A stretch of 64,000 bases of DNA from the NCBI GenBank assembly GCA_031308135.1, contig JAHLJT010008756.1, forward strand, positions 129,535,750-129,599,749. Direction: 5' to 3'. Position 1 is the stretch's first letter, and every line of letters starts with the position of its first letter. This DNA is from Acheta domesticus. Taxonomy: Eukaryota > Arthropoda > Insecta > Orthoptera > Gryllidae. Position numbers and translations under genes: made by a program. Positions 39,978 through 62,145 of this stretch are shown here, one piece after another. Under the pieces are notes generated by a model. The model was not told the DNA's origin, ran no database searches, and saw only the letters and a program-made list of their open reading frames with translations.

Positions 39978-40848
39978 GGAGTTTGCACATGATGTGTTGC
40001 GGAAACTGAGCAGCGGGGAACGGTTGGCGCGGAGCAGGAGCAGATGGGTCAGAGATGCTCCATCACAAACGATTGTTTTCCTGAGACATGTGAGCCGGTG
40101 GGACAGGGATCGCCCGTTGGAGGTTGCACGTGATATGTGGTAGAGGTGGTACAGCGGGGAACGGGCGGAAGGGAACGGTCGACATGAAGCGGACTCGGAA
40201 GCGAGAGCGGAGCAGCACGATCAGAGATGCTGTCTCGCAAAAACTGTTGATCAGAGACATCCGAGCCGGCGGAGCGAGGACTCCCGGCTGGAGGTTGCAC
40301 GTGATGCGATATAGAGATCGGGGCAGCGGCAGCGGGGAACGGTCAAGGCAGGCAGAGGCAGCGGGGAACGGTCGGTGCGGAGTGGTAGCGGGAGCGGTGG
40401 CGGAGCAGCGCGAGCAGAGATGCTGCATTACAAAAACTGTTGCTCTGAGACATCTGAGACGATGGAGCGGGGACTGCCGGCTGAGGAGTGTCGCGGAGCA
40501 GGAGTGGAAGCGGAAGCGGAAGCGGGAGCGGGAGCGGGAGCTGGTGCGGGAGCTGGTGCGGGTGTGGGAACGCAGCAGCGCGACCAGAGATGCTGCACTG
40601 GAAAACTGTCGGTCTGAGACATCGGAGCCGGTGGAGCGGGGACCGCCCGTTGGAGGTTGCGCATGATGCGTAGCGGAGACCGGGCAGCGGGGAACAGTCG
40701 GCGCGGAGCGGGAGCGGGGAACACAGCGGAGCAGGAGCAGGCGGCTCAGGGATGCTCCATCGCAAACGATTGTTGTACTGAGACCTGTGAGCCGATGGAG
40801 CGGGAACAGACGGCTGGAGATTGCACATGATAAGTGGTAATGATCGGA

Positions 40849-41043
40849 CAGAGGGGAACGGGCAGAGGGGAACGGGCAGAGGGGAACGGGCAGAGGGGAA
40901 CGGGCAGAGGGGAACGGGCAGAGGGGAACGGGCAGAGGGGAACGGGCAGAGGGGAACGGGCAGAGGGGAACGGGCAGAGGGGAACGGGCAGAGGGGAACG
41001 GGCAGAGGGGAACGGGCAGAGGGGAACGGGCAGAGGGGAACGG
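40849..41043. repeat. 14-bp tandem array, ~14 copies
   Basis: Nearly perfect repeats of CAGAGGGGAACGGG. It is a local expansion of the GCAGCGGGGAACGG motif present once in the other minisatellite units. Confidence 0.97.
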
Positions 41044-45169: not shown

Positions 45170-45578
45170 CTTAGCCGAAGCAACCACGGAAAACAAGCGA
45201 TCCAAGGAGCCGGCCGCTACAGTTCTTCTCCAGGCAGCGGCTAAATTCAATTAATTGATTGAGTTTTCCGGGCGCGTCAAAGGCTCAGGTCATTAGTTCC
45301 GTAAGTGTAGTGCACATTTTTATCGCATAAAGGGGTGGTAAACGTCCACCGCTAAATGGCGAGATACGATGCCGCCCTACAAATTTGTTTGCGGGGGGTT
45401 TCCCCAACCAGGTATGTCCCACCTACGGGCATTACCCCAGTCGGGACAAACTCTAAGCTCCGACTTATCTCCCGACATGTGAGGTAGTGTAGTGTAAGTA
45501 AGGAGTGAGAATACGGCAAGGAAGAGGAAGGAAAGATCGCGTGCGGTCCATGACTCGTTTGTTAGGGTACCGTTCCGG
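45170..45578 (-). mobile_element. Two SINE-A fragments, minus strand
   Basis: 45170-45249 matches the 5'-central part of SINE-A in reverse (CAACCACGGAAAACAAGCGA, GAGCCGGCCGCTACAG). It abuts the 3' half of another minus copy (45250-45578), which runs from TCAATTAAT-type tail sequence to GGTACCGTTCCGG. There the SINE breaks off exactly at the 15-bp array. Confidence 0.8.
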
Positions 45579-46011
45579 AGCGCAAGGCGGCGGAGCGCAA
45601 GGCGGCGGTGCGCAAGGCGGCGGTGCGAAAGGCGGCGGAGCGCAAGGCGGCGGAGCGCAAGGCGGCGGAGCGCAAGGCGGCGGAGCGCAAGGCGGCGGAG
45701 CGCAAGGCGGCGGAGCGCAAGGCGGCGGAGCGCAAGGCGGCGGAGCGCAAGGCGGCGGAGCGCAAGGCGGCGGAGCGCAAGGCGGCGGAGCGCAAGGCGG
45801 CGGAGCGCAAGGCGGCGGAGCGCAAGGCGGCGGAGCGCAAGGCGGCGGAGCGCAAGGCGGCGGAGCGCAAGGCGGCGGAGCGCAAGGCGGCGGAGCGCAA
45901 GGCGGCGGAGCGCAAGGCGGCGGAGCGCAAGGCGGCGGAGCGCAAGGCGGCGGAGCGCAAGGCGGCGGAGCGCAAGGCGGCGGAGCGCAAGGCGGCGGAG
46001 CGCAAGGCGGC
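45577..46011. repeat. 15-bp GC-rich minisatellite, 29 copies
   Basis: 435 bases of GGAGCGCAAGGCGGC, almost perfect. The only visible variants are near the left end (GGTGCGCAAGG, GGTGCGAAAGG). Because 15 is a multiple of 3, frames on both strands stay open (AQGGG, RKAAE, RLALR, SAALR readings). The apparent 180-277 codon proteins are artefacts. Confidence 0.98.
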
Positions 46012-55762: not shown

Positions 55763-56994
55763 GTTCTACGCCACCCGCCGCACTCTCAAGTATTAAGCAC
55801 ATCTTCGCTGCATAATCTGCTCCTGCGATTGTGAAATATCGGTCAGAATTATTTCTTGAACGTTATCTCGGACAAGTAAATCAAATTTCTCCAAGACAGC
55901 CTCACAGCGAATGTATGCCCAAACTAGAGGGAGGACGTTTTAACAATAGTATACTTGACAACCCTGTCCAAACCAGAACATAGAATAAATACATACTCCC
56001 GAGGAAGTCTTTTATTTCTTTCCGGAGGAAGTCTTTCATGTCGAGGAAGTCTTTCATCAACTTTTGGAAAGCGTAGCGTAAAACGTGATTAAGTCACGTG
56101 ACCAGTAGCGTGTGAAGTGTAATGTATTGCACTAGCGAATCATTTCCGGGTCCATTACTAATATAAAAAATATAGCATGTTCTGAAATGGCACGAGCGAG
56201 TACTGATTAACACATAACCTCAGATTCCTTCCTTCTCGCATGGCGTCAGCTGTGTAGTAAGCAGTATCGCTCTGAGTACGAGAATATAGTCGTAGCATCA
56301 GGTATGAGAAAAGGGAAGTAAACAGAATAAAATATTTACATATTCAGTGAGATTCAAAACTGTTTCATTGTTTTTGAATTTATCCACTTTTTGTGAACAT
56401 CAAATGAAACTATTGACACCTCTTACGTGGTCAAAGGCTGCTTAAATTTCCGTCAGTTAGTGTATATTCAAACTTAGTAACATAGATTTCTCTTTGGAGG
56501 TATTGTATGTTTGTAACAAACTAAATTTAATAGATAGACGTAGTTATTCGGCCTGAATTAATGATGTTATGATGGAGGCGAAAGGCATACGCTACGTCGC
56601 GCAGCGTATTGAATACAATTGATAAAGAATGGAGAATGGTAAAGTAGGTGGACTCTCAATTGACCAGTTAGAGAGCATTCCTTAGGATACACATTTAAGA
56701 CAATACTTTGTAATAAATATGTAGAATCTACGATTGACCAGTGGCCAAACTCATTGGACATTGATTTTCTTGCAAGTAGAATAGAATCGCTTAACTCTTT
56801 TGTAAGCGAGGCCTAGTAAAACGTGCTCTTGGCTCCAGAGGTCGACAGCTTTCTATGCTATCGAACTAGACGCTTGCATTTGGTATCAGGGTTTGGTGCG
56901 GGTTCTTGAGCTCCTTCTAAGGACAGTATTTTTTGCATAGAGCTTCTCTTTGTGGCGCAGTGTGTGTGAGGTGGTGCATTGTGTGTTGCAGATC
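55763..56994. other. Intergenic DNA upstream of Shab
   Basis: AT-rich, with a small local triplication of GAGGAAGTCTTTCATC-like units at about 55999-56060. No gene supported. A Shab promoter or 5' UTR could lie here but I see no decisive motif. Confidence 0.35.
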
Positions 56995-57291
56995 AGGATG
57001 CGCCAGCGGCTGGGCGCGGCGGCGGCGGGGGGCGGATGAGGTCGCGCGCCGCCCCCGCTGCCCGCCTCCGGCCCCGCCCCCGCCCCCGCGCCCTTCGCCC
57101 ACGCGCCCTTCGCCCCCGCCGCGGCGGCGGCGCTTAGCGGCGGCGGCGGTGGTGGTGGTGGGTGTCGCCCTTCCGCCGCGCCCGCGCCCGCGCCCTCGCC
57201 TCCGCCCCCGCCCTCGCCCTCGCCCTCGCCTCCGGCCCGCGCCCGCGCCCGCGCCAGCGCCAGCCTCCTCGCCCCCGCCGCCGCGCCGCCC
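56995..57291 (+). other. CpG-rich region immediately 5' of Shab exon 1
   Basis: Strongly GC-rich (CCGCCCC, CGGCGG runs) and continuous with the coding exon. It is open in the exon frame for some distance upstream of the ATG at 57292 (reading ASLLAPAAAPP), so the true start could be further 5'. It may be 5' UTR, an N-terminal coding extension or a CpG-rich promoter. Confidence 0.45.
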
Positions 57292-57435
57292 ATGCTGGGC
57301 GAGCCGGCGCGCGAGCCGGCGGCCGGCGGCGTGCGCTGGGACATGGGCGGCGACCTGGGCGCGCCGTGCGCCGCCGAGGACGCGGGCGGCCCGGGCCCCG
57401 GCCCCGGCCCCGGCCCCGGCCCCGGCGGCAAGGAG
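57292..57435 (+). CDS. Shab: Shab (Kv2) potassium channel, probable first coding exon
   Basis: This would encode the cytoplasmic N-terminus of the channel: 48 codons from an ATG at 57292, starting MLGEPAREPAAGGVRWDMGG and ending in a Pro-Gly run and GGKE. The exon closes at GGAG|GTCAGT, a good donor. It ends in phase 0, which fits the phase-0 start of the T1 exon 2.6 kb downstream on the same strand. The residues themselves are low complexity and not diagnostic, since insect Shab N-termini are variable and rich in simple repeats. The assignment therefore rests on position, strand, phase and donor. The ATG context (GCCGCCC before ATG) is only fair, and an upstream start in the same open frame is possible. 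The exon's donor is the first unit of the 63-bp minisatellite that follows. Confidence 0.5.
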
Positions 57436-58497
57436 GTCAGTCAGCAGCCAACGCGCTCCCTTCAACCCTTTGCACTCGTACAATATGCGTGAAAGGAGGT
57501 CAGTCAGCAACCAACGCGCTCCCTTGAACCCTTTGCACTCGTAGAACATGCGTGAAAGGAGGTCAGTCAGCAACCAACGCGCTCCTTTGAACCCTTTGCA
57601 CTCGTAGAACATGCGTGAAAGGAGGTCAGTCAGCAGACAACGCGCTCCCTTCAACCCTTTGCGCTCGTAGAACATGCGTGAAAGGAGGTCAGTCAGCAAC
57701 CAACGCGCTCCCTTGAACCCTTTGCACTCGTAGAACATGCGTGAAAGGAGGTCAGTCAGCAGACAACGCGCTCCCTTCAACCCTTTGCGCTCGTAGAACA
57801 TGCGTGAAAGGAGGTCAGTCAGCAGCCAACGCGCTCGCTTCAACCCTTTGCACTCGTAGAACATGCGTGAAAGGAGGTCAGTCAGCAACCAACGCGCTCC
57901 TTTGAACCCTTTGCACTCGTAGGACATGCGTGAAAGGAGGTCAGTCAGCAGCCAACGCACTCCCTTGAACCCTTTGCACTCGTAGAACATGCGTGAAAGG
58001 AGGTCAGTCAGCAACCAACGCGCTCCCTTGAACCCTTTGCACTCGTAGAACATGCGTGAAAGGAGGTCAGTCAGCAGACAACGCGCTCCCTTCAACCCTT
58101 TGCGCTCGTAGAACATGCGTGAAAGGAGGTCAGTCAGCAGCCAACGCGCTCGCTTCAACCCTTTGCACTCGTAGAACATGCGTGAAAGGAGGTCAGTCAG
58201 CAACCAACGCGCTCCTTTGAACCCTTTGCACTCGTAGGACATGCGTGAAAGGAGGTCAGTCAGCAACCAACGCGCTCCCTTGAACCCTTTGCACTCGTAG
58301 AACATGCGTGAAAGGAGGTCAGTCAGCAACCAACGCGCTCCCTTGAACCCTTTGCACTCGTAGAACATGCGTGAAAGGAGGTCAGTCAGCAACCAACGCG
58401 CTCCCTTGAACCCTTTGCACTCGTAGAACATGCGTGAAAGGAGGTCAGTCAGCAACCAACGCGCTCCCTTGAACCCTTTGCACTCGTAGAAATGCGT
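57432..58497. repeat. 63-bp minisatellite repeating a splice donor, 17 units
   Basis: The unit begins GGAGGTCAGTCAGCAACCAA and contains CGCGCTCCCTTGAACCCTTT and ACTCGTAGAACATGCGTGAAA. Starts fall exactly every 63 bp from 57432 to 58440; the last unit is partial. The first unit overlaps the end of Shab exon 1. Every unit holds a GAG|GTCAGT donor-like site and an in-frame TGA (read from exon 1). The 512-codon minus frame (21-residue period LLTDLLSRMFYECKGFKGAR) results from the 63-bp period. Confidence 0.97.
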
Positions 58498-58819
58498 GAG
58501 ATGCCACCCGTGAATGCACTCTGCGGTCGGAGGTTTTTGAGCATTGCGAAGTCCTACAACTCGTAAGGCACGTCTAAGATGTCAATGGAATAAGGCTGCA
58601 CAGCTGAGAGCCGATACTTGGCATTCCAGCTGGTTTTTCACATTATTGCGTCAGCATTGTTTAAAAATAAAATAATGGTCCGGATTGATTCAACAATGAA
58701 AATTTTATTGCACATACCAGAAAAATACGTGGGCATCTGTAGCATGCCCTACGAGTTAATTGGGGATTTTGGTGTGGCATCTGAGACATGCCATACGAGT
58801 TGTAGAACGTATCACATTA
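58498..58819 (+). other. Shab intron 1, unassigned part
   Basis: No gene. Two diverged copies of a GGCATCTG..GCATGCCCTACGAGTT-type segment lie at about 58731-58758 and 58775-58804. Confidence 0.4.
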
Positions 58820-58824
58820 CATAC

Positions 58825-58925
58825 TGATACGAGGCCCCGGCGGTAAGGAGGTCAGTCAGCAACCAACCCTTTCAACCCAACCAAGTCAGTCAGCAACACG
58901 CTCCCTTTAACCCTCCGGCGGGCGC
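58825..58925 (+). repeat. Second copy of the Shab exon 1/intron junction
   Basis: CCCCGGCGGTAAGGAGGTCA, followed by GTCAGCAACC, repeats the 3' end of exon 1 plus the donor (CCCCGGCGGCAAGGAGGTCA at 57421). It is followed by fragments of the 63-bp unit (GTCAGTCAGCAACACGCTCC). The copy lies about 1.4 kb downstream of the original. Confidence 0.85.
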
Positions 58926-60058: not shown

Positions 60059-60295
60059 GTGCGGTACGCGCCGTTCCCGCCGGTGGCCGCCGGGTCGCCG
60101 CCGCTGAGCGGCGCGCCGCCGCCGCCCCCGCTGCCGCCCCCGCTGCCGCCGCCGCCGCCCCTGCAGCCGCTGCAGCTGCAGCAGCGCGCCCACTCGCGCA
60201 GCATGTCGTCGCTGCCGCCCGAGCCCTTCATGATCATGCGCTCCAAGGCGCTCAACCGGCGCGTCTGCATCAACGTCGGCGGCGTCAAGCACGAG
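60059..60295 (+). CDS. Shab: Shab (Kv2) potassium channel exon, N-terminus and start of T1 domain
   Basis: This codes for part of a voltage-gated K+ channel subunit of the plasma membrane (delayed rectifier, Kv2/Shab). Residues 1-48 form a Pro/Gln-rich linker (VRYAPFPP, poly-Pro, [14 protein letters not shown]). Then comes [18 protein letters not shown] and [13 protein letters not shown], the start of the BTB-like T1 tetramerisation domain; the NVGG(V/L)xHEV motif is typical of Kv channels and the [15 protein letters not shown] lead-in points to Shab. The exon ends phase 0 at CACGAG|GTGCGC. The rest of T1, the S1-S6 membrane segments and the selectivity filter are not in this window and should lie 3' of 64000. 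The acceptor is inferred (GCGCAG|GTGCGG). The ATG at 60203 has A at -3 and could serve as an alternative start. Confidence 0.88.
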
Positions 60296-60609: not shown

Positions 60610-62145
60610 TTAGCCCTTTCACATTTGTCCACCTCCGAAGGTGTAGTCCAATTGCATTCCTTCAGGAGGAGTTCCCCGATTGCACGTCTCCCTCCCACAC
60701 TCTTCCCAATTTGCCCTTTCACTTTTGGCTACCCCAGGATGTTTCAGGTTTCCTCCCACACGCCTCCCAGTCAGCCCTTTCACATTTGGCTATCTCAGAA
60801 GGTAGGGTATAATTGCATTCCTCCAGAAGGAGTTCCCTGATTGCACGTCTCCTTCCCACACTCTTCCCAATTACCCTTTCATTTTTTGCTACCTCAGAAG
60901 GTTTCAGGTTTCCTCCCACACGCCTTCCAGATAGCCCTTTCGCATGGCTACCTCAGGAGGTGTCAGGTTTTCTCTCACATGCCTCACAGTTAGCCCTTTC
61001 ACATTTGTCCACCTCCGAAGGTGTAGTCCAATTGCATTCCACCAGAAGGAGTTCCCCGATTGCAGGTCTCCCTCCCACACGCTTCCCAATTAATCCTTTC
61101 ACTTTTGGCTACCTCAGGAGGTTTCAGGTTTCCTCCCACACGCCTCCCATTTAGCCCTTTCACATTTGGCTACCTCAGAAGGTGGAGTGTAATTGCATTC
61201 CTACACAAGGTGTTCCCCGATTGCAGGTCCCCCTCCCTCTCATGCTTTCCAATTTGCCCTTTCACTTTTGCCTGTTTCTGGAGGTTTCAGGTTTCCTCCC
61301 ACACGCCTCCCAGATAGTCCTTTCGCATGTGACTACCCAGAAGGTGCCTGGTTTCCTCCTACACGCTTCCCAGCTAGCCCTTTCACATGGATACCTCAGG
61401 AGGTGTCAGGTTTTCTCTCACACGCCTCACAGTTAACCCTTTCACATTTGACTACCCCAGAAGATGTCAGGTTTACTCCCACACGCTTCCCAGCTAGCCC
61501 TTTTACATGGCTACCTTAGTAGGTGTCAGGTTTCCTCCCCCACGCCTCCCAGATAGCCCTTTCACTTACCTTTCACCTCACGATGTGTGCATTTCGCCCG
61601 AAGGAGATCCCCGATTGAAGATTTCCCTCCCACACGCTTCTCACCTAGCCCTTTTACATGGCTACTTCTGGAGGTGTCAGGTTTTCTCTCACATGCCTCA
61701 CAGTTAGCCCTTTCACATTTGTCCACCTCCGAAGGTGTAGTCCAATTGCATTCCACCAGAAGGAGTTCCCCGATTGCACGTCTCCCTCCCACACGCTTCC
61801 CAATTAATCCTTTCACTTTTGGTTACCTCAGGAGGTTTCAGGTTTCCTCGCACACGCCTCCCAGATAGCTCTTTCACTTACCTTTCACCTCAGGATGTGT
61901 AGTCCAATTGCATTCCGCCCGAAGGAGATCCCCGATTGAATATTTCCCTCTAACACGCTTCCCACCTAGCTCTTTCACTTGGGTACCTCAGAATTTTTTA
62001 GGTTTTCACTCACACGCCTCACATTTAGCCCTTTCACATTTGGCTACCTCAGAAGGTGTAGTCAAATTGCATTCCTACAGAAGGAGTTCCCTGATTGCAG
62101 GTCTCCCTCCCATATGCTTCCCAATTAGCCCTTTCACTTAAAATC
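60610..62145. repeat. Minisatellite with two unit lengths (~60 and ~102 bp)
   Basis: Some 21 units are anchored on (A)GCCCTTTCACATTTGGCTAC. Short units (58-62 bp) carry TCAGGTTTCCTCCCACACGC. Long units (93-102 bp) add GTCCAATTGCATTCCACCAG and GAGTTCCCCGATTGCA. Order by spacing from 60612: L S L S S L S L S S S S S L S L S L S L. Frames of 60-113 codons are open in places but do not stay in phase, so it is non-coding intronic DNA. Confidence 0.92.

Follow-up and report, generated by a model that had tools for sequence, protein, structure and literature searches.

How does the splice donor of a conserved ion-channel gene become the first in a row of identical donors, and what may such a row do to the message? 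The question is raised by exon 1 of Shab in Acheta domesticus, the end of which lies inside a tandem array. The array was analysed in a stretch of 64,000 nucleotides (the window; plain positions below are counted from its first letter), and comparisons were extended to the neighbouring chromosome sequence, the whole assembly, and published work.

The Shab exon 1/exon 2 junction

The coding part of Shab exon 1 occupies 57292..57435 on the plus strand (144 nt, 48 codons, MLGEP...GGKE), as recognised from its translation and the conserved KE|VRYAPFP junction, and its donor, GTCAGT, starts at 57436. The region 57001-57400 is 85-90% G+C. Exon 2 lies on the same strand at 60059..60295 (237 nt, VRYAPFP...NVGGVKHE) and leads into the T1 domain. 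When the two exons were joined, the product read ...GPGGKE|VRYAPFP...NVGGVKHE in phase 0.

A search with a Drosophila query yielded 1627 proteins, the matches themselves being database proteins. VR[YF]APF was present in 40 of the 120 proteins listed, and KE stood directly before it in 40 of 40; the holders included Drosophila (GKEVRYAPFP), Periplaneta (SKEVRYAPFP), Apis, and Carabus. The junction stretch was diverged, shorter, or absent in the remaining 80. When the window's own exons 1 and 2 were used as the query, 131 proteins were found. Among the 120 of them listed, three aligned over 100% of this query, namely two sandflies at 43% and 45% identity and Periplaneta at 52%, and by E value the best ten among the matches listed belonged to Hymenoptera, with Periplaneta eleventh. 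In the PDB, the last 37 residues of exon 2 plus the next one (38 residues) matched KCNB1 chains at E 2e-9. Exon 2 scanned by itself against Pfam gave nothing at E <= 1. Downstream on the same chromosome, exon 3 (VLWRTLERLP; C5655:129601401-129601583) and exon 4 (C5655:129605029-129605304) were 95% and 97% identical, respectively, to Periplaneta Shab. A Kv2 N-terminal motif is joined to conserved downstream exons at this locus, and the assignment to Shab made by the initial annotation holds. Since the protein is conserved across exons 1 and 2 and is followed by exons 3 and 4, the donor at 57436 is well supported, and exon 1 is predicted from protein conservation to be spliced to exon 2 at 57435, the exon end that had been proposed before.

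Two further features of the gene were noted. Exon 3 appears to end at C5655:129601583 (about position 2580 of locus L009) with ACAG|GCAAGC, which would make a GC-AG intron. The S1-S6 exon was found twice in opposite orientation, at C5655:129640104-129640919 (plus strand, L013) and 129660924-129661765 (minus strand, L015). Both copies were frame-broken by many small indels and lay within about 10 kb of 1000-N gaps (129650413 and 129664497), and no intact S1-S6 exon was found within the 200 kb fetched. The duplicated inverted exon is probably an unpolished misassembly; it is possible that L013 and L015 are pseudogene copies.

A minisatellite that starts inside exon 1

TRF reported one tandem array at 57430-58499 (period 63, 17.0 copies, 95% matches), which starts within the last codons of exon 1. 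TRF, the unit boundaries, and the core pattern together defined a plus-strand minisatellite at 57430..58499, with 17 head-to-tail units in the 10-100 bp size range, each carrying GAG|GTCAGT. Units 1-16 are 63 nt each, and unit 17 has one base fewer (62 nt). The string GGAGGTCAGT was present in 17 of 17 units, plus once more at 58847, so that the earlier description of 17 tandem 63-bp units with the same donor string, that is, one donor and 16 decoys, was reproduced. Its tally needs a small correction, because the last unit is 62 nt and two further donor copies lie downstream of the array.

All 17 units open with a 17-nt donor core, AAGGAGGTCAGTCAGCA. The window contains 18 exact occurrences of the core, 17 of them within the array and one at 58845, against a chance expectation of 0.05 (100 dinucleotide shuffles), and a further one with 3 mismatches (58879). 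In the whole assembly of 2,328,301,720 bases there were 18 exact matches, all at the Shab locus, and 0 for a reversed-pattern control. The array itself, in this one assembly, gave 17 matches at 1 candidate place, all at the Shab locus.

Ten of the 63 columns are variable among the units. A stretch of 287 bp is identical within the array at a lag of five units, suggesting a recent duplication of a block of about five units. Given such a recent block duplication, the length of the array is likely to vary between individuals.

The copy number, or even the entire array, could have been created or distorted by assembly, and the apparent misassembly of Shab downstream, with its doubled, inverted, and frame-broken S1-S6 exon within about 10 kb of 1000-N gaps, lends this some weight. 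The window, however, is free of N, the unit spacing is exactly 63, and the unit variants recur as ordered blocks. An artefact could alter the unit count but hardly produce the composition of the unit described below, and we regard it as very improbable.

Tandem repeats are common in this part of the chromosome. Over 261,350 bp including the window, TRF gave 81 rows with a period of 10-120 and 5 or more copies, which cover 7.1% of the sequence, overlapping rows being counted separately. An array close to an exon is therefore unremarkable here, whereas an array of the exon's own donor is not. Other arrays in the window lie at 45576-46011 and 40845-41043 (29 x 15 bp and 14 x 14 bp, respectively, both with 99% matches), and a 59/160-bp tandem family occupies 60888-62140, downstream of exon 2. 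Because 63 is a multiple of 3, a minus-strand open frame of 554 codons (56917-58581) spans the whole array, and gene predictors could call it a repeat protein. Pfam gave four rows for this frame, one of them above the cut-off (HPIP_like, 49.5 vs 28.1 bits), and in none of the four did any stretch pass on its own. A 210-residue piece had one weak protein match (E 2.7e-5, 27% identity; 7995 candidates scored). The frame was rejected as spurious.

The sequence behind the array belongs to a dispersed MITE family

The 337 bp behind the array were compared with the genome. There were 1113 first-look candidates, and the 40 of them that were scored gave, besides the window copy itself, 39 genomic places that matched almost the whole query at 83-86% and a single partial match at 77%. 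Ten of the 39 copies were fetched with both flanks and the other 29 as 5' ends. The family starts with CCCTTTGCACTCGTAG, which the 5' ends of the ten fetched copies match with 0-3 mismatches; a recognisable end was absent in 4 of the 39 (L043, L060, L061, and L066). Three copies were extended to the right. Their right end, TTACGAGTGCAAAGGG in all three, differs from the reverse-complemented family start by 1 mismatch. The 5' end of the copy itself is intact in one of them (C6096); the other two show 1 and 3 mismatches there. The full-length element measures 455, 453, and 453 bp in these copies, with 16-bp inverted ends starting CCCT and a longest stop-free frame of 83-116 codons.

TTAA stands directly 5' of the element in 19 of the 39 copies and is one base off in 1 more; the other 5' flanks are CTAG (6), TTAG (2), TTAT (2), and single variants including TGAA and TCAA. 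The 3' flanks of the three extended copies are TTAA, TTGA, and TTCA, and TTAA on both sides was seen in none of the three. The hallmarks described for piggyBac-type elements are TTAA duplications and inverted ends that carry CC[C/T]T and measure 12-19 bp (PMC2872659). The inverted ends found here fall within that description, and at the level of the family the TTAA target is visible in the 5' flanks. Because of the 16-bp CCCT inverted ends and the 5' TTAA, the family was classed as piggyBac/TTAA type; by these sequence hallmarks, the dispersed 453-455-bp family is a MITE of that type.

The copy in the window lies at 58474..58833 on the plus strand (360 nt) and is contiguous with unit 17. It is 83-84% identical to the three full-length copies and therefore appears to be a decayed, truncated member of the family. 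About 85 nt are missing at its 3' end, the second inverted end included, and a TTAA duplication of its own is not seen, the 5' flank being TGAA/TCAA and the 3' end being gone. An internal inverted repeat (85%; 58551-58584 and 58775-58808) is separate from the terminal repeats.

Each unit joins the Shab junction to the MITE end

The alignments of the fetched MITE copies did not stop at the MITE remnant. All 10 continued leftward across the right border of unit 17 and reached column 37 of the unit, which identifies columns 37-63 as MITE nt 1-27. Each 63-nt unit is thus chimeric, columns 1-36 being host sequence (6 nt of exon and 30 nt of intron) and columns 37-63 the MITE end. The host columns consist of AAGGAG, the donor, and the intron up to T[G/C]AA. 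In unit 1, the host part is 57430..57465 (plus strand; 6 nt of exon end, then the donor with 30 nt of intron), as delimited by the alignment with the MITE copies, the unit columns, and a MITE-less copy downstream. The MITE part is 57466..57492 (plus strand), the first 27 nt of the element, CCCTTTGCACTCGTA...GCGTGA, and holds an in-frame TGA. The four bases before the MITE part are TCAA in 6 of the 17 units, unit 1 included, and TGAA in the other 11, so that the end of the host part looks like a decayed TTAA target.

Two copies of the junction lie behind the MITE remnant. The second junction copy (58833..58878, plus strand) was found by local alignment to 57418-57468 and contains the exon end and the donor, GGCCCCGGCGGTAAGGAG|GTCAGT..., without the MITE. 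The third, degenerate copy (58885..58913, plus strand) reads GTCAGTCAGCAACACGCTCCCTTTAACCC and ends in CTTTAACCC, with an intact, unoccupied TTAA. The segment 58833-58913 is read as junction copies with an empty target, which may be older than the insertion or may reflect a later loss of the element.

If the donor of exon 1 and the adjacent intron had expanded alone, the neighbouring repeat would be a mere bystander. The start of the unit inside the exon and the MITE-less junction copies at 58833-58913 would suit such an origin. However, the terminal sequence of a dispersed MITE makes up 27 of the 63 nt in every unit, and unit 17 runs without a break into the remainder of that MITE. An expansion of the junction alone is accordingly very unlikely and largely refuted. 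The initial annotation suggested that the expansion started from the junction itself; this stands for the left border of the unit, 6 nt inside the exon, but not for the right one, which lies in the MITE that also supplies the stop.

The invariance of the donor core might suggest selection. With 10 of 63 columns variable, the chance of no variable column among the first 17 is 0.03, and that of an invariant run of 25 or more columns is 0.06. Moreover, the between-unit difference is larger in the host part (5.7%) than in the MITE part (3.0%). The case for selection from invariance was therefore judged weak and was not adopted.

Close amplification of the MITE end is found at the Shab locus

The array could in principle have been brought in by a MITE with an internal minisatellite, since MITEs with tandem repeats are known (PMC9659126). 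The host 17-mer, however, is found nowhere else in the assembly. Exact single MITE ends numbered 264 genome-wide (control 5), whereas two exact ends 25-55 nt apart occurred 8 times, all in the Shab array (control 0). This pattern is strict: of the 16 neighbouring pairs in the Shab array it detects 8, so that tandem ends in other places could escape it if they have diverged. The 120-230 bp upstream of the other 39 copies showed no second 5' end; 4 of these copies have no recognisable end of their own. Arrival of a ready-made array with the element is thus next to impossible in our estimation, and close amplification, within the scope of these searches, belongs to the Shab locus and not to the MITE family. 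The viral contigs gave 0 matches for the 27-nt MITE part of the unit. At C5655:45613161-45613947 (L071 and L030), two MITEs stand side by side, the first (L071) partial, with their 5' ends about 270 bp apart.

Taken together, we favour the view, with a probability of roughly 0.8, that a MITE inserted near the donor and that the 63-bp segment bridging the two was then amplified, the first donor remaining functional. We infer the insertion, the order of the events, and the mechanism of amplification as follows. A MITE of the piggyBac/TTAA-type family would have entered intron 1 at a distance of 30 nt behind the donor. A segment of 63 bp, made up of 6 exon nt, the donor with 30 nt of intron, and the first 27 MITE nt, would then have been tandemly duplicated, and slippage or unequal exchange would have carried the array to 17 units, including the recent duplication of a block of about five units. 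The 3' end of the MITE would have been lost at some point. Against a MITE-seeded origin, the window copy has TGAA/TCAA at its 5' side and no 3' end, and its own target duplication is not demonstrable. The two MITE-less junction copies point to some duplication apart from the 63-bp unit, which makes the order of events given here tentative.

Every decoy donor would lead to a MITE-derived stop

The array overlaps the end of an exon and offers a donor in each unit. Between exon 1 and exon 2, 21 GT sites had 7 or more of 9 matches to CAGGTAAGT, and 19 of them belonged to the array or its copies: 17 to the array, one to the downstream copy (58851), and one to the degenerate copy (58885). The other two (59128 and 59604) were unrelated. 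The Shab donor GAG|GTCAGT itself has 7 of 9 consensus matches and is not optimal. The two donors beyond the array read GAG|GTCAGT (GT at 58851) and CAA|GTCAGT (GT at 58885).

Each of the 16 decoys shares 17 identical nt with the true donor, and all of them are in phase. When exon 1 was extended to any of donors 2-17 and joined to exon 2, the frame was unchanged and the first stop was a TGA after residue 66 in 16 of 16 joins, in agreement with the in-frame TGA announced by the initial annotation for any decoy. The two further donors led to the same TGA. These stops are transposon sequence and lie where the MITE part of each unit ends.

The openness of the donors was predicted by local folding. 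At W=120, donor 1 reached 0.031 vs 0.0001-0.0042 for decoys 2-17; in a wider window, decoy 17 was the highest, with 0.0134 vs 0.0077 for donor 1. Three folded pieces were no more stable than their shuffles (z 0.53, 0.58, and -0.19). Masking of the decoys by RNA structure was rejected, since donor 1 lost its lead to decoy 17 at the second window and the folds were no better than shuffles.

Discussion

The first donor, which lies beside the native GC-rich exon, would make the functional Shab message. The 16 decoys and the two further donors would give a variable fraction of longer transcripts, which would stop after 66 codons and would probably be degraded. From the sequence, an effect of the array on splicing is plausible; that decoy-derived longer transcripts would make up a measurable fraction falls somewhat short of an even chance. 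In human genes, SRSF1 bound just upstream of two competing donors is described as disfavouring the intron-distal one (PMC5585400). Such an effect would be harmful at Shab, so the native exon sequence would have to favour the first donor.

The array might also have acquired a function as a rheostat, in which unproductive splicing would tune Shab output in a length-dependent manner, more units drawing more U1 to stop-bearing decoys. This would be a function added to the MITE-seeded origin and not an alternative to it. Sixteen in-phase decoys, each followed by a stop and each matching the true donor at 17 nt, are what such a device would need, and downstream repeat units are reported as splice donors in human IFI6 (PMC4526556). 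On the other side, the decoys are predicted to be less open than donor 1 at W=120, though decoy 17 is the most open at the wider window, and the three folded pieces are no better than shuffles. We consider such tuning unlikely. A more speculative proposal, less likely still, treats the unit as a splicing cassette: an acceptor-like MITE start, CCCTTTGCACTCGTAG|, is followed 17 nt later by the host donor, so that each unit may offer a potential 17-nt poison microexon together with a decoy donor, and the array length may then act as a heritable dial on the level of functional Shab.

The nearest precedent concerns another gene in another animal. A minisatellite in the human IFI6 gene (6-16, G1P3) provides several splice donors (Turri, Cuin and Porter 1995, NAR 23:1854, as cited in PMC2915984, PMC4526556, and PMC2572611), and the use of two of its downstream repeat units as donors is reported (PMC4526556). 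To judge from the title of that work, the two arrays are alike in being minisatellites that offer multiple splice donors. They differ in that the 63-bp Shab unit is chimeric with a transposon end and brings a stop with each decoy, and in that the donors here are predicted from sequence; IFI6 is known to us by title and citations.

For the transposon side, coral CMITEs, which are TTAA MITEs with CC[C/T]T ends, are described in tandem arrays for which the authors suggest replication slippage; these arrays can include sequence between the elements, and one has gaps of similar sequence (PMC2872659). As described there, the coral arrays repeat full-sized MITEs, whereas the Shab array repeats 27 nt of one end together with 36 nt of host junction. 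Transposon-derived tandem repeats have been reviewed (PMC9659126), and in them, as at Shab, a dispersed element seeds a tandem repeat. Unlike those repeats in general, the Shab unit straddles the border between element and host and carries a splice site. No account of a Shab donor array was found in the open-licence literature, most subscription journals lying outside it, and no unit composed half of a splice junction and half of a transposon end was met in the literature searched, which covered related topics rather than that exact combination.

The locus illustrates in concrete form how a single MITE may give rise to a minisatellite linked to a gene. It suggests that, once a transposon has inserted next to a splice site, the site can become an array of identical donors in competition, each of which then has a transposon-made stop, inside a conserved ion-channel gene. 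Competition between duplicated donors is a classic in vitro design. The Shab array would be a natural version of this test, with 17-18 equal sites, in which the choice of donor by position alone can be tested.
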